DNA from: Gammaproteobacteria bacterium
GTDB taxonomy: Bacteria; Pseudomonadota; Gammaproteobacteria; HK1
Direction: 5' to 3'
Length of the DNA stretch: 64,000 nucleotides
Assembly: GCA_021773795.1 (NCBI GenBank)
Contig: JAJFJT010000032.1
Coordinates: forward strand, 1 to 64,000
Below, piece after piece: positions 3,961-34,188 of this stretch (within the stretch, counting starts at the first letter, position 1; each line of letters starts with the position of its first letter). Below the pieces are notes generated by a model. That model was not told the origin of the DNA, made no database searches, and saw only the letters and a list, made by a program, of their open reading frames with translations. The position numbers were made by a program, and so were the translations under genes.

Positions 3961-4728
3961 CTAACCTGGCAGGTAACGCATGGGGTCGACGGGCTTGCCA
4001 TCTCGCCGCACCTCAAAGTGCAACATGACGCGCCTGGCCCCACTTCGCCCCATCTGGGCGATCCGATCCCCCGAGGCCACTCTCTGCCCTTCGGCCACCA
4101 GTAACTTTTTATTGTGCGCATAGGCACTTAGGAAGTGTTTATTATGCTTGATGATAATAAGCCTCCCATAACCACGCAGTCCACTCCCGGCATAAACCAC
4201 CCGCCCACCAGCTGCGGCCACCACTGCCTGACCGGATTTTCCGGCGATGTTGATACCCTGTTTTTCCGGCAGTTTAAAGTGCGCAATCAACTTGCCGCGC
4301 GTCGGCCATTTCCAGCGCCGAATCGGGATTCCCTTGGTCGGTTCCCGACTGCGGCTGGTGCTTTTGGCTGATTTTTTTGTGGCGGTGCGATGTTTGGGCT
4401 GAACCTTACTGCGGCGGCTTTCAATCACGCGCTTGCGCTTCACCACCTTGCCGCTAACACGCAGTTTTTGCCCTGGATATATCGTGTAGGGAGTGGCTAT
4501 CCCGTTCCAGCGCGCCAGATCACGATAATCGAGACGATAGCGCCAGGCGATGGAATACAGGGTCTGACCACCACGAACCACGTGCCGGAATGTGGCCTTC
4601 TTTGCCGCCACCGGGGTGCGCCCCAGAGGCGCATGAAATTCGGAAGAAGCACAGCCCGGTAGCAACAGCACCCCGCTACAGAGCAATAACAGACCTGCGA
4701 GCCGGCTGGATTTAACTGCGGCGTTCAA
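3961..4728 (-). CDS. nlpD: NlpD-like lipoprotein: LysM plus degenerate M23 domain
   Basis: This predicted envelope lipoprotein activates peptidoglycan amidases at division. Seen: a signal peptide with lipobox LLPGC and lipidated Cys26, one LysM domain at about 49-92 (HVVRGGQTLYSIAWRYRL), a basic linker, and a LytM/M23 domain at about 159-251. The zinc ligands are missing: the first His/Asp positions read INIAGKSGQ and the final HxH reads MLHF. This matches NlpD/EnvC-type activators rather than active endopeptidases. It overlaps the pcm stop by four bases and precedes rpoS by 59 bases. EnvC is the alternative assignment; the gene order favours NlpD. Confidence 0.92.
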   Translation of the reverse strand: MNAAVKSSRLAGLLLLCSGVLLLPGCASSEFHAPLGRTPVAAKKATFRHVVRGGQTLYSIAWRYRLDYRDLARWNGIATPYTIYPGQKLRVSGKVVKRKRVIESRRSKVQPKHRTATKKSAKSTSRSREPTKGIPIRRWKWPTRGKLIAHFKLPEKQGINIAGKSGQAVVAAAGGRVVYAGSGLRGYGRLIIIKHNKHFLSAYAHNKKLLVAEGQRVASGDRIAQMGRSGARRVMLHFEVRRDGKPVDPMRYLPG

Positions 4729-5372
4729 ACACCCGCCGTCGGGCCACTACCCGCCAACATAGGTACGAAGCGCACCAGTTCCAGCACCTCTTCGTGATAC
4801 TCATCGCCCTCACGACGCACCAGCATCAGGCGTTGCACACCCTGTTCTCCCACGGGGATCAGCATGCGACCACCATCTGCCAGCTGCTGCTTGAGGGTTT
4901 CCGGCATTTCTGCAGGTGCTGCGGTAACGATGATGCCATCATAAGGGGCGTGGGCAGTCCAACCTTCAAAACCATCACCCTCCCGAATACGAACGTTGCC
5001 TATGCCCAACACGTGCATGCGTTCGCGTGCCCGGCTGGCTAGCACCGGCAGTCGTTCAATGCTGTAAACCGTATCTGCCACATGAGATAACACCGCGGCC
5101 TGATAGCCACAGCCGGTACCTATTTCCAGCACTTTTTTCAAATGCCGCCCGGCAATCATCGCCTCGGTCATACGCGCCACGATATAGGGTTGGGAAATGG
5201 TCTGTCCGTGACCTATGGGCAGCGCATTATTTTCGTAAGCCCGGCTGGCTAAGGCCTCGTCTACAAAGATGTGCCGTGGCACTTCAGAGATGATGTCCAA
5301 TACCGTGGCATCACTAATGCCCTCGACACGGAGGGTCTCCACCAAGCGGTCACGAGTGCGTTGTGAGGTCAT
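4725..5372 (-). CDS. pcm: Protein-L-isoaspartate O-methyltransferase
   Basis: This enzyme methylates isoaspartyl residues in damaged proteins using S-adenosylmethionine, which starts their repair. Seen: LPIGHGQTISQPYIVARMTE (substrate loop) and the SAM-binding motif VLEIGTGCGYQAAVLS, with RMLIPVG later. The frame allows a start at 5405, but I chose the ATG at 5372. MTSQRTRDRLVETL is the usual N-terminus, and a G-rich stretch precedes it. The stop overlaps the nlpD start (ATGA), which indicates translational coupling. surE, the usual upstream neighbour, is absent: upstream lie about 90 bases without a recognisable gene and then a family 2 element. Confidence 0.95.
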   Translation of the reverse strand: MTSQRTRDRLVETLRVEGISDATVLDIISEVPRHIFVDEALASRAYENNALPIGHGQTISQPYIVARMTEAMIAGRHLKKVLEIGTGCGYQAAVLSHVADTVYSIERLPVLASRARERMHVLGIGNVRIREGDGFEGWTAHAPYDGIIVTAAPAEMPETLKQQLADGGRMLIPVGEQGVQRLMLVRREGDEYHEEVLELVRFVPMLAGSGPTAGV

Positions 5373-5496
5373 CCCCACCCCGCGATAGGAACGGTTCGTA
5401 ATCATCAGAGAAGGTTTTTCAGCTGGCCGGTATCGATGTGTTCATCTCCAGGGTGCCCTCCAAAAGATAAGTGCCCATCACACGCGTTTTTGCTAA

Positions 5497-26547: not shown

Positions 26548-27159
26548 CTAGTGGCCATCCGACAAAACTTTGCGGGCATCCTGAACAAAGTCAGCATAGA
26601 TACTGGACAGCGCTTTCCCAAAGGCAACAGCACCTGCCGAAAATGACTTTCCAGACGGTATAGCGGCTTCATATTCCCTGACTAACAATGGGGCTTTCCC
26701 CCCGCTTCCCTCACGGAGCAAACGTAACTCCAGCCCCACTACGGCCCGCACAGAACCACCCACCAGTTCACGCTCAAAGCGAAGAATTCGTCCGCCTACA
26801 ATCAAACCTCCCGAGGCCAACTGGCCTTCGCTCCGTACCATGGGGGAAAATCCAACAACCCGCAGATAACGTACCAGATGGCGTTGCAATAGGCGCGGTG
26901 GCGGTTCTAGCCAGAAATGATAGTGGTGCTGCTGCAGGCGGATACCCTCAGCATGCTCGGTATAAACGATCGCCCGCTCCCGGTGGACGCCATCACTTTG
27001 CAGGACATTTACCAACACACTCTCAGCCACGATGGGACTGTTCAATACCACGGCCGGCTGTGCTAATGGCAAGCGATAAAATTGATCCGGGGGCACCGGT
27101 GCTTGTCGGCCACAAGCACCCAGCAGCAGGAAAAACCCGAAGGCGAGCAGCTTTTTCAT
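26548..27159 (-). CDS. ABC-type transport auxiliary lipoprotein (PqiC/YmbA-like)
   Basis: This is a predicted outer-membrane or periplasmic lipoprotein working with an MCE-type lipid transporter. The 203 residues start with a signal peptide and lipobox LLLGAC (Cys16). They then show the ABC_trans_aux fold with FYRLPLAQPAVV, SVLVNVLQSDGVHRERAIVY and HYHFWLEPPPRLLQRHLVRYL. It is the last gene of the transporter operon, and its start overlaps the stop of the MlaD-like gene by four bases (ATGA). This composition, with a PqiC-like lipoprotein and no MlaC, sets the system apart from the classic Mla pathway. Confidence 0.88.
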   Translation of the reverse strand: MKKLLAFGFFLLLGACGRQAPVPPDQFYRLPLAQPAVVLNSPIVAESVLVNVLQSDGVHRERAIVYTEHAEGIRLQQHHYHFWLEPPPRLLQRHLVRYLRVVGFSPMVRSEGQLASGGLIVGGRILRFERELVGGSVRAVVGLELRLLREGSGGKAPLLVREYEAAIPSGKSFSAGAVAFGKALSSIYADFVQDARKVLSDGH

Positions 27160-28163
27160 GGTTTGGCTTTTCCTTTGGCTTCCTGCGGCGTGGGTGCGCT
27201 GATAAGCAATGCCGGATTTTCTCTAATCTGACGGGAAAATTCGTGGAAATTACGGCTGCTGCCCTCAAGGTGATAACTCACGGTTTCCACACGCTGGGAG
27301 AGCACATCCAGAATCTGACGAAGGTCCTTGACCGCAAAACGCAGGTCCTCCCGATTTTCCCCTACCATGCCTTCCACACCGATTAGCACCCGCTCTGCAT
27401 GCTCACGCAGCTGCTCCACCTCTCCTAACACGATGCGGAGCTTTCCCGATGCCTTCTCCAGGTTGGAGAGGGTCGTCGTCGCGCTGCGACGGTTGTCCTC
27501 CCCCAATAGCTGTTGCAAGGAAGCAGCCGCCTCATTCAACCGTGCCAGCACGTTCCCGGCCTCGGTCACTAGATCTGCGCGCTCCAGGTCGCTACGCAAC
27601 TTGTCCATGAGGGGGCGAACACTGTCCCTGCTAAGCCCACGCAATTCCTCTAGCAAGCCCGTCAACTGTTCCTGAAAACCCTTGATCAGGGGGCGAATGG
27701 TATCCCTCGATAAGGCGCGAAAATCTTCGGCAGTGTCATTCAATGTGGCCAGAAGATTAACCCTGGGAGCCCCTTTAATTTCATCCCCGGGAGCAAGGAC
27801 ACGGCCACTCTGCCCACCCGTGATTTCGATGGAGATAGCCGATAGCAAACCGGAGGCTATCATCCGGGCAACGCTATCTTCGGGAATGGGCCAGTCATGA
27901 CGGACATGCAGCCGCAGCCGGTAACGCAGGCCATCCGCCTCACGTCGCGGTTCGATCTCCTCCACCTGCCCCACCTGAAAGCCCTCGTAGAAAACAGGGG
28001 TCCCGAACTTAAGGCCCGCCACATTCTGGTAGTAGAGATAGTAGGCATCCGCCGCCCCGGTGCGCCCGTTGAGCAGGGCAATACCCAGCAGTAACGCGGC
28101 CAAGGCGATGAGCACGAAGCTGCCCACTGCCAGATAATGTACGTTGTCACGTTTCACGAGCAA
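27156..28163 (-). CDS. MCE (MlaD) family substrate-binding protein
   Basis: This is the inner-membrane-anchored periplasmic component of an ABC lipid transporter. The 335 residues show one N-terminal membrane helix (VGSFVLIALAALLLGIALLN, about 12-31), an MCE domain at about 40-118 (YYQNVAGLKFGTPVFYEGF, then GQVEEIEPRR), and a long helical C-terminal region with heptad character from about 135 to 310. MCE proteins form hexameric rings that bind lipids. The gene abuts the ATPase gene and overlaps the lipoprotein gene. Confidence 0.9.
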   Translation of the reverse strand: MLVKRDNVHYLAVGSFVLIALAALLLGIALLNGRTGAADAYYLYYQNVAGLKFGTPVFYEGFQVGQVEEIEPRREADGLRYRLRLHVRHDWPIPEDSVARMIASGLLSAISIEITGGQSGRVLAPGDEIKGAPRVNLLATLNDTAEDFRALSRDTIRPLIKGFQEQLTGLLEELRGLSRDSVRPLMDKLRSDLERADLVTEAGNVLARLNEAAASLQQLLGEDNRRSATTTLSNLEKASGKLRIVLGEVEQLREHAERVLIGVEGMVGENREDLRFAVKDLRQILDVLSQRVETVSYHLEGSSRNFHEFSRQIRENPALLISAPTPQEAKGKAKP

Positions 28164-28979
28164 TTACTCTCCAGTAAGGCGTGCAAGGTAAGCGTCGGCA
28201 TCCAGTTCCTCCTCCCGAGGCCGGCGATTGAGCAAATCCTGGACCCGTGAATTGGATGAACTGCGCACCTTGTCTACCGTATCGCTGATCAGTATTTTTC
28301 CGCCGTCCAGTACGGTAATACGGTCAGCAATACGAAATGCACTCTCCAGTTCATGGGTAACCACCACGATACTCATGTGCATGGCATCCCGCAGGCGCAG
28401 AATGAGTTCGTCGAGTTCCGCCGACACCACCGGATCGAGACCCGCCGAAGGCTCATCGAAAAACAATAATTTTGGGTCCATAACGATGGCTCGTGCAAGG
28501 GCCGCACGCTTGGTCATACCGCCTGATAGCTGGGCAGGCATAAAGTGTTCGAAGCCACCCAGTTTCACCACCTCCAGCTTCATCCTCGCCATAATCGCCA
28601 TGGTGCTTTCATCCAGCCGGGTATGCTCTCGCAGCGGCAGGGTGACATTCTCCCCCACGGTCATGGAACTCAACAGGGCGCCTCCCTGGAAGGACACGCC
28701 AATTTGCTTGCGCAGTTCCAGCAGTGCCTGCCGGTGAATCCCCTCGATCTCCTGCCCGAGCAAACTAATCCGACCTGAAGTCAGGCGCCGAAGCCCCAAC
28801 AGGTGGCGCAGCAAGGTGCTCTTACCCGAGCCACTGCCACCCATAATGATGTGAATTTCGCCGGCCCTTACCGTAAGGTTTATGCCATCCAGTACCTTGT
28901 GACGACCGTAATGAGCCACCAGGTCCTGAACCTCGATTACCAGTTCGGCATTACCTTTCTGTGGTTCTGGGGTGAGCAC
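28164..28979 (-). CDS. MlaF-like ABC transporter ATP-binding protein
   Basis: This is the cytoplasmic ATPase of the MCE transporter. The 271 residues contain Walker A GGSGSGKSTLLRHLLGL, the Q-loop in SFQGGALLSSM, the signature LSGGMTKRAALARAI, Walker B KLLFFDEPSAGLDP and the H-loop VVTHELESAF. The GGMTKR signature is diagnostic for the Mla/Mkl-type ATPases. A short C-terminal extension (RRPREEELDADAYLARL) may touch a partner subunit. In Escherichia coli the C-terminus of MlaF and the STAS protein MlaB cooperate, and a STAS gene is in this operon too. Confidence 0.93.
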   Translation of the reverse strand: MLTPEPQKGNAELVIEVQDLVAHYGRHKVLDGINLTVRAGEIHIIMGGSGSGKSTLLRHLLGLRRLTSGRISLLGQEIEGIHRQALLELRKQIGVSFQGGALLSSMTVGENVTLPLREHTRLDESTMAIMARMKLEVVKLGGFEHFMPAQLSGGMTKRAALARAIVMDPKLLFFDEPSAGLDPVVSAELDELILRLRDAMHMSIVVVTHELESAFRIADRITVLDGGKILISDTVDKVRSSSNSRVQDLLNRRPREEELDADAYLARLTGE

Positions 28980-28983
28980 GGGA

Positions 28984-29787
28984 TTAACGGTTCAAAAACC
29001 AGGTAAAGACCATATCGGCAATGACAATACCGGAAATAGCCAACACCACAGAACGGGTAGTTGCCCGCCCCACTCCCTCAGCCCCTCCCGTGACCGTAAA
29101 ACCATTGGCAACGCCGATGAGGGTGATCACCGTGGCGAAGACACAGCTCTTGCTAAGCCCCTGAAAGATATCCCCCGTCTTGAGCACGCTGATGACCCGA
29201 TCGGCATAAGCTGCATAGCTGATGCCAAGATCCATAGCGCTGTATACTGCGCCGCCCAGCAAGCCGGCAAAATCCGCCATGACGGTTAGTGCAGGCAGCA
29301 TAACCAGCATGGCCAGCAACACCGGTGAGACCAAATAGCGCACCGGCTGGATCCCCATCACCCGCAGGGCATCGATCTCCTCTGATACCACCATCGTCCC
29401 GATACGTGCCGCCAGAGCGGAACCAGTACGTCCGGCGACCACGATGCCAGTGATGAGTGGCCCAAATTCCCGGGTTATGGAGAGCGCGATGCCGATCACT
29501 ACCTGGGATTCGGCACCAAAGGTGCGCAGGGTATGAATTCCCTGGATAGCCAGCATGATACCGATGGAGAAGGAGAGCAGGAACACAATGGGGATGGCGC
29601 TGACCCCGGTGCGCATCATCTCGGAAAATACCGCACTCACTCGCACCGGTTGCCGTTTAAAGCTACCGGCTACCAGCCAGTAAAGACTCTCCACCAACAA
29701 AGCCGAGAGGTAACCAACCTCCGCTATCAAGCCAAGCGTGCGCTTCCCCAGTTGTTCGACCCACCCCAGCCGGGCCTCAGCCATCAT
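28984..29787 (-). CDS. MlaE-like ABC transporter permease
   Basis: This is the membrane permease of the MCE transporter. I chose the ATG at 29787 (MMAEARLGWVEQLGKRTLG), giving about 267 residues. An earlier in-frame start at 29871 would overlap the STAS gene by 95 bases. Seen: the family motif region VVAGRTGSALAARIGTMVVSEEIDALRVMGI, with hydrophobic segments at about VIGIALSI, LAMLVMLPALTVMADFAGLL and VFATVITLIGVANGF. The start overlaps the STAS stop, which indicates coupling. Expression together with the STAS protein should give equal amounts of both. Confidence 0.92.
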   Translation of the reverse strand: MMAEARLGWVEQLGKRTLGLIAEVGYLSALLVESLYWLVAGSFKRQPVRVSAVFSEMMRTGVSAIPIVFLLSFSIGIMLAIQGIHTLRTFGAESQVVIGIALSITREFGPLITGIVVAGRTGSALAARIGTMVVSEEIDALRVMGIQPVRYLVSPVLLAMLVMLPALTVMADFAGLLGGAVYSAMDLGISYAAYADRVISVLKTGDIFQGLSKSCVFATVITLIGVANGFTVTGGAEGVGRATTRSVVLAISGIVIADMVFTWFLNR

Positions 29788-30109
29788 CCGCAATCCGTGT
29801 ATCCAGATCAGCGTGAATAGGAAAGACCTGATCAAGACGGGCCAGGCGCAAGACATTAAGCGCGGCCTCACTAACCCCGATAAGGCCGAACTTCAAGCCT
29901 TCCTTTTTTGCCATCTGGTATCCCTCTACCAGACTGGCGACACCAGAACTATCGATATAGGCGACTTCCGAGAGATCCACCAGTAGATCATTCTTCTTCT
30001 CCAGGCACTGGAGTATCAGTGCACGCGCCTCGGGAGAGCGTGCGAGATCCACATCACCACGCAACTCCACCACCGCATATCCTTTTTCTACTCTATGCCC
30101 AAAGCTCAC
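29777..30109 (-). CDS. STAS domain anti-sigma-antagonist-like protein
   Basis: This is a 110-residue single-domain STAS protein of the SpoIIAA/RsbV/MlaB type. Seen: VELRGDVDLARSPEARALIL, then LLVDLSEVAYIDSSGVASLV. The serine after Asp53 (Ser54) aligns with the phosphorylated serine of SpoIIAA and RsbV. Its place is telling: 17 bases downstream of a phosphatase/kinase-like gene and overlapping the permease gene of an MCE transporter. Escherichia coli MlaB is a STAS protein that binds MlaF. Here it may act as a phosphorylation-controlled MlaB, as an HsbA-like signalling protein, or both. The choice is inference. Confidence 0.9.
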   Translation of the reverse strand: MSFGHRVEKGYAVVELRGDVDLARSPEARALILQCLEKKNDLLVDLSEVAYIDSSGVASLVEGYQMAKKEGLKFGLIGVSEAALNVLRLARLDQVFPIHADLDTRIADDG

Positions 30110-30125
30110 CTTAATGCTCCCTGAT

Positions 30126-31823
30126 TCAAGTGATACGTTTCGTTAGCGTCAAGCAATTCCCGCATCCCTGCGGGGCCTCATCAAAAACCCAGTCATCCAT
30201 CAATTCATCAATAAAGTGCGTGCCGAGCCCCCCTGGCCGCAACTCTTCCAGTGAACGAGGCTGAATGCGACCAGGATCTACGGTTGCCGCCCAGTCCTTC
30301 AGTACGCAAACCAGCTCGTCGCCATTATTGTGTATCTCCAGCAGGATTTCACCGGAGTAATCCCCTTCATCAGCGTGCTGCATGATATTGGTACAGGCCT
30401 CGTCGACCGCCAATACTATCTGCGCTACCACCCCCGCACTACACCCGGCCAGCAGGGCTGCCGACCGCACCTCAGCTCGAACATCCTGCAGGCGTTCTGG
30501 CTGTGCCGGAAATCTCCGCTCCATCAGCTTTTTGCTTAGCTGGTGGCATCTGCTGGTGATCAGCATCATGGTGATGTCATCCCGCTGGCGGGTATCGGGG
30601 CGTCGAATTTCGGCGACGATATTTTCCAGCTGATCACTGGATTCCAGTTCTGACATACGCTCAATGAGCCCGATAAGACCCGCCACATCCAGTGGCTTGC
30701 GCTCCGCTGTCAGGCTCTCGGTAACCCCGTCGGTAAAGAGATACAGGCTCCCGCCCGCCAGCGATACCTCGCTTACTGGAAATTCTGTTTCGGGGGTCAC
30801 GCCCAGTGGCGGCGCACCGGCAGGGATCTCGGAAAAGCTCCCATCACAGCCACGCTGTAGTGGAGGCTGGTGCCCGGCATTGGCAAAACAAATCCGCTCG
30901 CTCTGCGGGTCGATATAGCCCGAAACAATGGTGACAAACATCCCGTGGGAAGCCGTTTCACACAAGGCCTGATTAACGCGTTCCAGCAGTTTCCCCGGGT
31001 CCGTGTAATCCCGGGCTAGGCAACGCAGCAAGCTGCTGGTTTGAGCCATCAGCAATGCCGCATTCATGCCCTTGCCGGAAACATCGGCAAGATTAAAGTA
31101 GATGCGCCCGTCGGGCAGCCGAAAAAAATCGTAGAAATCTCCGGAGACCTCATATGCGGGAAAATTGACTCCGGAGACCGGGAAATAAGGCGCGTGGGGA
31201 GCCGGCAATAACTTACGCTGAATCTCCCGGGCAAGTTCCAGTTCGCGTCGCAGGCGTTCGTGCTCCACCAGTGAGTCCGCCATGCGCGCATTGTGGATAG
31301 CCAGCGCTGCCGCCGAGGCCAACACACGAACCAGAGTCTGATCCTTGGGGTCGAACAAGCCGTCACCACTACGCTTGTTGACCAGTTCCAACACCCCGAG
31401 GCAATCGCCGCGCACGCTTAGGGGAGCGCACAGCAACGAACGAGTCGCAAAGCCGGAACTGTGGTCAATGGTAGCGCTGAAATCACGACTGCGGCGTACA
31501 TCCCGAACCATCTGGCAGGCCTGCTCACGCACGCATTTGCCGACGATACCCTCGGCCACATCCATACGCAGGCCGGCAATATCTACCGGGCCCACGCACT
31601 TGTAGCACACCAGCTCCCGATCTTCGTTTTCCAGCAGAAAGATGGACGCCGCCTCGGCGTCCATATACATCATGAAACGCTCGATAGTGGTCTGCAGTGT
31701 CTCGTCGAGATTAAGGGAACTGGCAAATTCCTGAATCAGCTCGGCCAGCAGGGCAAGTTGCTCGACCACATCGTGATCAGCCTCGTTTCCGATAGCGCGT
31801 AACGACGGGCGATTCAGCTCCAT
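30126..31823 (-). CDS. GAF-SpoIIE phosphatase fused to HATPase (RsbU/RsbW-like)
   Basis: This 565-residue signalling protein has three parts. A GAF sensor lies at about 25-178. A PP2C/SpoIIE phosphatase at about 205-424 keeps metal-binding acids in GDFYDFF, LADVSGKGMNAAL, FTDGVTES and DDITMM. A GHKL ATPase at about 435-560 has the N-box AVDEACTNIMQHA and a G-rich box GGLGTHFIDELMD. The phosphatase half resembles RsbU, which dephosphorylates STAS proteins. The ATPase half resembles RsbW, the opposing kinase. It is the first gene upstream of the STAS gene, so that STAS protein is its likely substrate. Confidence 0.9.
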   Translation of the reverse strand: MELNRPSLRAIGNEADHDVVEQLALLAELIQEFASSLNLDETLQTTIERFMMYMDAEAASIFLLENEDRELVCYKCVGPVDIAGLRMDVAEGIVGKCVREQACQMVRDVRRSRDFSATIDHSSGFATRSLLCAPLSVRGDCLGVLELVNKRSGDGLFDPKDQTLVRVLASAAALAIHNARMADSLVEHERLRRELELAREIQRKLLPAPHAPYFPVSGVNFPAYEVSGDFYDFFRLPDGRIYFNLADVSGKGMNAALLMAQTSSLLRCLARDYTDPGKLLERVNQALCETASHGMFVTIVSGYIDPQSERICFANAGHQPPLQRGCDGSFSEIPAGAPPLGVTPETEFPVSEVSLAGGSLYLFTDGVTESLTAERKPLDVAGLIGLIERMSELESSDQLENIVAEIRRPDTRQRDDITMMLITSRCHQLSKKLMERRFPAQPERLQDVRAEVRSAALLAGCSAGVVAQIVLAVDEACTNIMQHADEGDYSGEILLEIHNNGDELVCVLKDWAATVDPGRIQPRSLEELRPGGLGTHFIDELMDDWVFDEAPQGCGNCLTLTKRIT

Positions 31824-32364: not shown

Positions 32365-34188
32365 TTAATTCCAGTCAAGCACCGCGGTAACGGAATTACC
32401 CTTACCATGGTAAACAAGGGACTGACACAAGGAACGCATCAGGGGAATGCCCCGGCCGGAAAGGCCCAGATTTTCAGTGGCTTCGGCCGGTACCGCGTCA
32501 AGGTCAAAACCGGGTCCGCTATCCTTAAATCTGATGGTCAGCCTGCCCCCTTCTCCATGAACAACGTGCTGCAGCTTGATTGTTAGCCTTCCGTTTTCCA
32601 GGCTCGATAGCCTCTGTTCCCGCTGAGCATAGTATTGGCTAAAGCCCTCGGCGGAATCCTTCATCCCGGAATCCAGCCCGAGAATGCCGTGGTCCAGAGC
32701 ATTAGTATAGAGCTCAGTTAGAACGGTGAAAATCCGGCTCCAATGGCCCCTCAATCCCTGATAGTCCAGCAACATCTGGGTCAGCAGCGGTATGGGCTCC
32801 GCACTGCGCAACATATCTGCCTCGAATTCGAGCTGAAAGCGCCAGTGCATGGGTGGGCGGGTATTCTTCTTTTCCTGCTTTTCCTTGCCCCGCGCCACCA
32901 TCACCTCAGGATCGCAATATAACTCCACCAGGGTGAGATCATCCGACTGGGATTCGTCCCCACAAAATTCCGCCGCACCATCGGTTATGCGTGCATAAAT
33001 CCTGTCAGCCGGCATCGCGGGATCAAAACATGCCTCCAGGCGGGTCTGTCCGTACATATCTCCGGCTGGATTTTCTGCTTCAATGATGCCATCGGAATAG
33101 GCAAAGACACGCTGTCCCGGGAGAATCTCGCACTCCTCAACACCCGTATTCACGCGCTCCGTTGGCACCGCGCCCAGGGGTAAATTCCGCGAGGGCAAAC
33201 GATGCACCAGACGCCCATCGTCGTCGGAAATCAGGACCTCGGGCAAACCTCCATTCCACACAGAAAGTCGTGATTCCTCCCAGATCCAGTCCATCACACT
33301 GGCGCAAAAGAAACGCCCCACTGGCAGCAATCTTCGGAGCTTGCGGTTGATTTCCTGGATCAGATCACCGATCGCAAAACCCTTGGCGGACATGCCATTG
33401 AATATCTCGGCCACCGGCAAGGCTCCAATGGAAGCAGCCAAACCATGGCCGGTAAAATCACCCACCAGAACCCGCAGGGCACCACCGGGTAATTCCGTGG
33501 CGAGCAACAAGTCTCCATTAAAAACCGACATGGCCGAATGGAGGTAGCGCAAATTCGACAGTTCATCTAGGCAGGCAGAATGCACAACATTGGAAAACAA
33601 GCGCTCCGCCACCTCAAACTCTCTCTCCTGCTCCTCTTTGTGACTGGATAGAGACCGGTACTGTTGCCTCACCATGCCGTACAGGTCGGAAATTCTTAGC
33701 AAGGCATCAAGCTTGGCCTTAAGGATAATCCGCTGTACCGGCTTGTTAAGGAAATCATCCCCACCCGAGCGTACACAGCGAGCCAGTGCTTTCTCATCAG
33801 TCTGGCCAGTAAGAAACAATATAGGCAGGAAAGAGTCCCCGATATCATCCTTGATATGACGTGCCGCTTCGTAGCCATCCATCACCGGCATGTTGATTTC
33901 CATGAGGATGACATCCGGGCGTTTAAGTCTGACCCGCTCGACGGCCTCCAGCCCATTTGCGGCCAGTTCCACTTGAAAACCGTCGTCCTCAAGGTAAGCC
34001 TGCAACAACATCTGGTTTGATTTACTGTCGTCCACCACCAAAATGGTGCGGGCGTTCGCAGAGACCGACTGCTTCAGATCCAACGGCATCACGTCTACCA
34101 GTGGCTTGGTATTTTCCATCGGCAACAAACTCTCCCCATTAGGCAGATCATCTATTTTTCTTGACGAGACCCGATATCCCTTCACCAC
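32365..34188 (-). CDS. Receiver-SpoIIE phosphatase-HATPase protein (HsbR-like), receiver Asp replaced by Glu
   Basis: This 607-residue protein has the layout of Pseudomonas HsbR: a receiver domain (about 48-165), a PP2C/SpoIIE phosphatase (about 230-430; VGDFTGHGLAASIG, FAYSDGIIEAE, SDDLTLVELY), and a GHKL ATPase (about 455-605; VLTELYTNALDHG, DSGPGFD, SGRGIPLMRSL). The receiver keeps the acidic pair VVDD and Lys in LNKPV. The phospho-acceptor position reads LMEINMPVMDG, so residue 97 is Glu (GAA at 33898-33900), not Asp. It may be locked in an active-like state. The first in-frame ATG is used; MENTKPLVDV at residue 24 is an alternative start. Confidence 0.9.
   Translation of the reverse strand: MVKGYRVSSRKIDDLPNGESLLPMENTKPLVDVMPLDLKQSVSANARTILVVDDSKSNQMLLQAYLEDDGFQVELAANGLEAVERVRLKRPDVILMEINMPVMDGYEAARHIKDDIGDSFLPILFLTGQTDEKALARCVRSGGDDFLNKPVQRIILKAKLDALLRISDLYGMVRQQYRSLSSHKEEQEREFEVAERLFSNVVHSACLDELSNLRYLHSAMSVFNGDLLLATELPGGALRVLVGDFTGHGLAASIGALPVAEIFNGMSAKGFAIGDLIQEINRKLRRLLPVGRFFCASVMDWIWEESRLSVWNGGLPEVLISDDDGRLVHRLPSRNLPLGAVPTERVNTGVEECEILPGQRVFAYSDGIIEAENPAGDMYGQTRLEACFDPAMPADRIYARITDGAAEFCGDESQSDDLTLVELYCDPEVMVARGKEKQEKKNTRPPMHWRFQLEFEADMLRSAEPIPLLTQMLLDYQGLRGHWSRIFTVLTELYTNALDHGILGLDSGMKDSAEGFSQYYAQREQRLSSLENGRLTIKLQHVVHGEGGRLTIRFKDSGPGFDLDAVPAEATENLGLSGRGIPLMRSLCQSLVYHGKGNSVTAVLDWN

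Follow-up and report, generated by a model that had tools for sequence, protein, structure and literature searches.

Within the window, by which we mean the whole 64,000-nucleotide stretch of contig JAJFJT010000032.1 analyzed here, the genes of a lipid transporter of the Mla type lie directly downstream of genes for a phosphatase-kinase and a STAS protein, raising the question of whether such a transporter could be controlled by partner switching. Six genes are transcribed leftwards (31823-26548), separated by no more than 16 bp or overlapping slightly, and this spacing, together with the Pfam domains of the products, confirms the tightly packed minus-strand operon of the original prediction. 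The genes, and a neighboring regulator gene, are as follows.

30126..31823, minus strand: GAF-SpoIIE-HATPase protein, 565 aa (Pfam)
29777..30109, minus strand: STAS protein of the RsbV type, 110 aa (Pfam, conserved Ser54, AF2 model)
28984..29787, minus strand: MlaE-family permease, likely start ATG 29787 (Pfam MlaE, 1e-70)
28164..28979, minus strand: MlaF-type ATPase, 271 aa (Pfam ABC_tran, 1e-30; best PDB matches are MlaF chains)
27156..28163, minus strand: MlaD-like protein, 335 aa (Pfam MlaD, 8e-13, residues 40-117)
26548..27159, minus strand: PqiC-like / ABC_trans_aux lipoprotein (weak Pfam ABC_trans_aux match, below cut-off)
32365..34188, minus strand: neighboring REC-SpoIIE-HATPase protein, outside the conserved unit (Pfam)

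Organization of the operon and its products

The 565-residue product of the first gene includes a GAF domain (residues 37-177), a PP2C phosphatase domain (237-423) and an RsbW-like kinase domain (438-562), with Pfam matches to GAF, SpoIIE (5e-43) and HATPase_c_2 (2e-24); the nearest PDB sequence to the HATPase domain is B. subtilis RsbW (2e-10). The metal-binding residues of the PP2C/SpoIIE domain (D47, D65, D183, D233 and D234 in domain numbering) are 100% conserved in 103 sequences, as are the N/G1/G2-box residues of the HATPase domain (E47, N51, H55, D82, G104 and G106) in 114 sequences, and overall the metal-binding Asp and the box residues are conserved in 97–100% of relatives. The GAF input of the original suggestion is only one of several: the phosphatase input domain is HDOD in 21 of 38 cases and GAF in 17, and one relative outside this set has a REC domain. 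In an alphaproteobacterial MAG (L153), HATPase and STAS are encoded by a single reading frame, an apparent fusion.

The STAS protein (Pfam STAS, 3e-17) contains the motif YIDSSG, and the phosphorylatable serine reported after Asp53 is indeed present, as Ser54, encoded by the AGT codon at 29950-29948. The residue is invariant in all 114 STAS sequences, but we rejected this conservation as proof of phosphorylation because canonical MlaB, which has no linked kinase, keeps a serine at the same site (15 of 15 sampled). By sequence the protein is closest to TM1442 and to further anti-sigma-factor antagonists, RsbV among them, and its AF2 model (pLDDT 92.5, with a C-terminal helix at 102-109) has as its best fold match the RsbV of the RsbV/RsbW complex (TM 0.83), compared with TM 0.66 for E. 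coli MlaB. Its clade is separate from canonical MlaB in the tree, with support of 1.0. The STAS protein, whose gene is linked to mlaF in the window and in relatives, occupies the place of MlaB yet is RsbV-like in sequence and fold and falls outside the MlaB clade; since its fold is nearer to RsbV than to MlaB, homology by itself does not imply that it binds MlaF.

The permease, the MlaF ATPase and the MCE-domain protein are encoded together in this one operon, as judged by Pfam, and MlaA and MlaC are absent from it. The permease gene probably starts at ATG 29787 (MMAEARLGW...) and not at the GTG at 29871 chosen previously, because relatives are homologous to the longer ORF only from about its residue 30 onwards; the STAS and permease genes do overlap as described, but with the ATG start by about 11 bp rather than 95 bp. 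The MlaD-like protein has one MCE domain and a long C-terminal helix region. The label PqiC-like suits the last gene by position and by the lipoprotein-like N-terminus of its product, but the match to ABC_trans_aux is weak (E 0.003; 17.6 bits, where the cut-off is 26); a homologue ends most related operons.

MlaF carries a C-terminal extension in which Y264, L268 and T269 are 99–100% conserved, with the same spacing as Y261, L265 and L266 of E. coli MlaF, which sit between MlaB and MlaF (PMC7367683). This sequence likeness offers indirect support for binding of the STAS protein to MlaF. As a marker of STAS dependence the extension is not clean: two loci without a linked STAS gene keep it, both in genomes with HATPase and STAS genes elsewhere, and only one further STAS-less MlaF sequence could be obtained, from family f67.

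The source assembly (2.56 Mb, 99% complete) does contain a separate MlaB, which the original prediction had named as a point against itself, but this MlaB sits in its own canonical mlaFEDCB operon on another contig (G000:C20, L001/L116), and the transporter operon has only its STAS gene. A promoter scan gave nothing above chance.

Beyond the region covered by the original prediction lies the REC-SpoIIE-HATPase gene (32365-34188), and a second SpoIIE gene is also found upstream of the operon in the loci of both congeneric genomes. This neighbor is possibly a second input to the operon.

Linkage of the switch genes to the transporter and to MlaF

The survey of related loci took the permease as its sole seed, which kept the regulator from biasing the sample; this comprised 55 relatives, 369 class genomes, 398 phylum genomes and a named genome collection. 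The permease subfamily was found in 45 of the 369 class genomes, with four more outside the class in the phylum set, and the best 80 loci were taken from the named collection. Profile HMMs built from the window proteins served to score the loci, and after removal of identical permeases 121 distinct loci were left, 103 of which have at least 3.5 kb upstream and could be judged. SpoIIE, HATPase and STAS are encoded immediately upstream of the permease in 92 of the 103, HATPase and STAS without SpoIIE in seven, and none of the three in four. The adjacency is not chance, and the presence of HATPase and STAS upstream of the permease in 99 of the 103 loci rules out the outcome that would have told against the original prediction, a phosphatase gene adjacent in this genome alone. 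Two of the four cassette-less loci (G099 and G460) are in genomes with HATPase and STAS genes elsewhere; the other two, from one genus, seem to be in genomes without an RsbV-type STAS or an RsbW-type HATPase anywhere. Because a few transporters with this permease type have no linked STAS, the transporter may not always need one. The named loci are mostly from Gamma- and Alphaproteobacteria, plus the betaproteobacterial Azonexus, with a few MAGs labeled Myxococcota, Deltaproteobacteria, Nitrospirota or Marinimicrobia; cultured carriers are Azonexus hydrophilus, Paramagnetospirillum, Insolitispirillum, Terasakiella and Tahibacter.

In the reverse direction, the HATPase domain was used as a query against the 369 class genomes (E <= 1e-12) and gave 59 matches in 58 genomes. 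Mla/MCE transporter genes adjoin 52 of these, including 42 that adjoin the permease subfamily; of the rest, two run up against a contig edge, and next to the other five there is no transporter gene. HATPase and STAS stay paired even without adjacent transporter genes (L270, L279 and L280). Module-type MlaF, defined as E <= 1e-72 to the window MlaF by a threshold set before the search, is present in 59 of the 369 genomes, and co-occurs with the HATPase in 56 (MlaF only in three, HATPase only in two, neither in 308; phi 0.95). The spread over 33 families is a better guide to this association than the Fisher value of 5e-60, because the latter ignores kinship. The exceptions are G027, G082 and G249 (MlaF only) and G230 and G328 (HATPase only); in G027 and G230 the contig concerned stops at the operon, and G328 has HATPase and STAS without a module-type MlaF. 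Covariation between STAS and MlaF (MI-APC, 124 pairs) picked out the same STAS columns against every partner, negative controls included, with phylogenetic signal dominant.

The switch genes are also found on canonical Mla operons. In G061, G194 and G211, SpoIIE-HATPase-STAS-MlaF-MlaE-MlaD is followed by MlaC (and MlaA is also present in G061 and G194), and in G168, G278, G373 and G099, phosphatase-HATPase-STAS-mlaE-mlaD is followed by mlaA and mlaC, with mlaF convergent next door; MlaC and MlaA at cassette-bearing loci were recognized by Pfam in several and by profile in the rest. In trees, the permeases of these seven operons group with canonical MlaE, and their STAS and MlaF proteins group with the module type (support 0.99-1.0), which stands apart from all canonical MlaF and MlaB proteins sampled. 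Three other genomes (G038, G185 and G320) have SpoIIE-HATPase-STAS-MlaF with no other transporter gene adjacent; elsewhere each carries an mlaE-D-A-C operon that lacks MlaF and MlaB, and in G320 this operon has the only MlaE found in the assembly. A further arrangement is seen in G059, G134, G199, G201 and G356, where mlaFED(A)C operons have a module-type MlaF and no adjacent STAS, with STAS/HATPase genes elsewhere, although the G199 contig breaks off too early to reveal a STAS gene.

The conserved unit is phosphatase-kinase-STAS-MlaF, with variable membrane and periplasmic parts; it behaves as one evolutionary unit across operon types, including those where the permease, MlaD and lipoprotein have been swapped or are missing. 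The linkage is broader than originally claimed in that it extends to canonical Mla operons, whereas the biochemical switch that formed part of the same interpretation, and its direction, are things we infer.

A putative phosphorylation switch on MlaF

We propose, with a rough probability of 0.72, that the phosphatase, kinase and STAS protein together make up a partner-switching module directed at MlaF, the ATPase of the transporter. The HATPase domain would be an RsbW/SpoIIAB-type kinase that phosphorylates the STAS protein at Ser54 and, in addition, holds its unphosphorylated form, and the SpoIIE domain, under the GAF input (HDOD or REC in relatives), would strip the phosphate. Free unphosphorylated STAS protein would take the place of MlaB on MlaF, at the helical subdomain and the C-terminal extension, and the STAS-bound MlaF would assemble and hydrolyse ATP, turning lipid transport on; with the STAS protein phosphorylated or kinase-bound, MlaF would have no activator and transport would be off. 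Phosphorylation of Ser54, binding of STAS to MlaF and the direction of control are thus all predicted steps, and activation by unphosphorylated STAS is the simplest reading because of the gene linkage and the data on E. coli MlaB, which is required for both assembly and activity of MlaF (PMC5016091, PMC7367683). The genetic tie, across dozens of bacterial families, between MlaF and this signalling trio, which is best known for its control of gene expression in bacteria, suggests that envelope lipid transport is switchable by phosphorylation.

In a scheme resembling the Hsb and Sia systems, the STAS protein could instead signal to another target (a diguanylate cyclase, or a sigma or anti-sigma factor), with the transporter a co-expressed output or a second client. 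The gammaproteobacterial partner switches SiaABC-SiaD and HsbA-HsbD do act on diguanylate cyclases (PMC7647112), the STAS protein is RsbV-like, and a second REC-SpoIIE-HATPase gene is present upstream of the operon. We nonetheless think this unlikely: ORFs and Pfam reveal no sigma-factor or cyclase gene in the window operon, MlaF stays the partner from one operon type to the next, also where other genes have replaced those for the permease, MlaD and lipoprotein or where these are missing, and apart from this STAS protein just two free-standing ones were seen in the genome, the canonical MlaB and a protein encoded in a CheY/CheX-like operon.

That MlaF is controlled with the opposite polarity, phosphorylated STAS activating it and SpoIIE switching transport off, is quite unlikely, given that in known partner switches it is the unphosphorylated STAS protein that binds the target, as with SpoIIAA/RsbV. 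The E. coli data point both ways: Thr52 of MlaB is at the center of the MlaF interface and the phosphomimetic T52E weakens MlaF binding (PMC7367683), but the non-phosphorylatable T52A abolishes ATPase activity without disassembly (PMC5016091), which would fit this polarity and is at odds with a simple phospho-switch.

It is very improbable that the STAS protein is a constitutive structural MlaB, linked for transcriptional reasons to a kinase and phosphatase acting elsewhere; the serine of MlaB proteins without a linked kinase and the role of E. coli MlaB as an assembly factor (PMC5016091, PMC7367683) would agree with it, but HATPase and STAS remain paired in the seven loci where SpoIIE is lost and in those without an adjacent transporter, one transporter-bearing genus is without both, and the STAS protein is closest to RsbV as in the RsbV/RsbW complex.

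Relationship to known systems and implications

Control of MlaF by partner switching would combine features of several known systems. As in E. coli MlaFEDB (PMC5016091, PMC7367683), a STAS protein accompanies an MlaE permease, an MCE protein and an MlaF-type ATPase whose C-terminus bears a Y...L(L/T) extension, and E. coli MlaB likewise has a Ser/Thr at the phospho-site; however, E. coli MlaB is a short form that lacks the C-terminal strand and helix, and no kinase or phosphatase is known for it, whereas the window STAS is RsbV-type, with both. With RsbU/RsbW/RsbV and SpoIIE/SpoIIAB/SpoIIAA the module shares a PP2C phosphatase, a HATPase kinase and a STAS substrate with a DSSG-type motif, but the known output of those switches is a sigma factor, and the linked output in the window is an ABC transporter with no sigma gene. 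A linked sigma gene is unnecessary for membership in the partner switches because known enzyme-targeting switches are also without one. Among these are SiaABC-SiaD and HptB-HsbR-HsbA-HsbD of Pseudomonas aeruginosa (PMC7647112, PMC5085249), where the target is a diguanylate cyclase; the proposed target here is the MlaF ATPase, with GAF, HDOD or REC as phosphatase input. HsbR-HsbA has a REC-PP2C-HATPase regulator and a cyclase partner, and the window operon has GAF in place of REC and no cyclase gene. STAS is also tied to MCE transporters in STAS-fused MlaE permeases (about 370-410 aa), but these have STAS in cis, no kinase, a variable phospho-site (T, S, F or L in a rough alignment) and, in two inspected, no recognizable MlaF extension. 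By membership, the cassette counts as a partner-switching module, one whose target is unusual, and its STAS protein lies outside the MlaB clade.

We further lean towards regarding SpoIIE-HATPase-STAS-MlaF as a self-contained, exchangeable cassette, which would bring reversible phospho-control, through a STAS protein truly switching between kinase and ATPase, to PqiC-type MCE transporters and to Mla proper. In a search that left subscription journals and preprints outside, we found no paper combining MlaB or MCE with SpoIIE or partner switching, a provisional result. Two E. coli papers pose MlaB phosphorylation as an explicit open question, neither naming an enzyme (PMC5016091, PMC7367683). The operon and its more than 100 relatives, cultured species included, offer a candidate kinase and phosphatase beside the STAS gene, and how cells raise or lower lipid traffic to the outer membrane becomes directly testable. 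If the proposal is true, partner switching would extend to ABC transporters, and this would be the first known case of an ABC transporter under a partner switch of the sporulation/stress type.

Further phosphatase-kinase and STAS genes in the window genome

The following genes lie outside the six-gene transporter operon:

32365-34188 of the window, minus strand: REC-SpoIIE-HATPase protein, a second phosphatase-kinase
L363 (G000:C30:65110-65385): the other free-standing STAS seen in this genome besides the canonical MlaB, in an apparent STAS-CheY-CheX-like operon

The REC-SpoIIE-HATPase gene is located two genes upstream of the module operon, with a DUF1244 gene in between, and in both congeneric genomes a second SpoIIE gene is likewise upstream of the operon. 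A ParA-like gene adjoins the STAS-CheY-CheX-like operon.

Variations in transporter operons

In genome G099 the partner switch is on the Mla operon (L251), and the place expected for STAS in the PqiC-type operon (L107) is occupied by an HD-GYP-like protein gene (4362-5474; Pfam HD_5), which overlaps the start of the permease gene. Second MlaE-MlaD pairs are found directly 3' of the module operon at two loci (L084:9668-11133 and L090:8748-10062).

HATPase-STAS pairs and a putative fusion

Loci L270, L279 and L280 contain HATPase-STAS pairs without an adjoining transporter, with an FHA-domain-like gene opposite and a recurring small protein (~140 aa) beside the pairs; a similar small protein, together with FHA-like and PP2C-like genes, flanks the STAS-less operon of L072. 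In an alphaproteobacterial MAG, a single reading frame with no stop (L153:5237-5980) apparently spans HATPase and STAS, and possibly represents a natural fusion of the kinase with its substrate.
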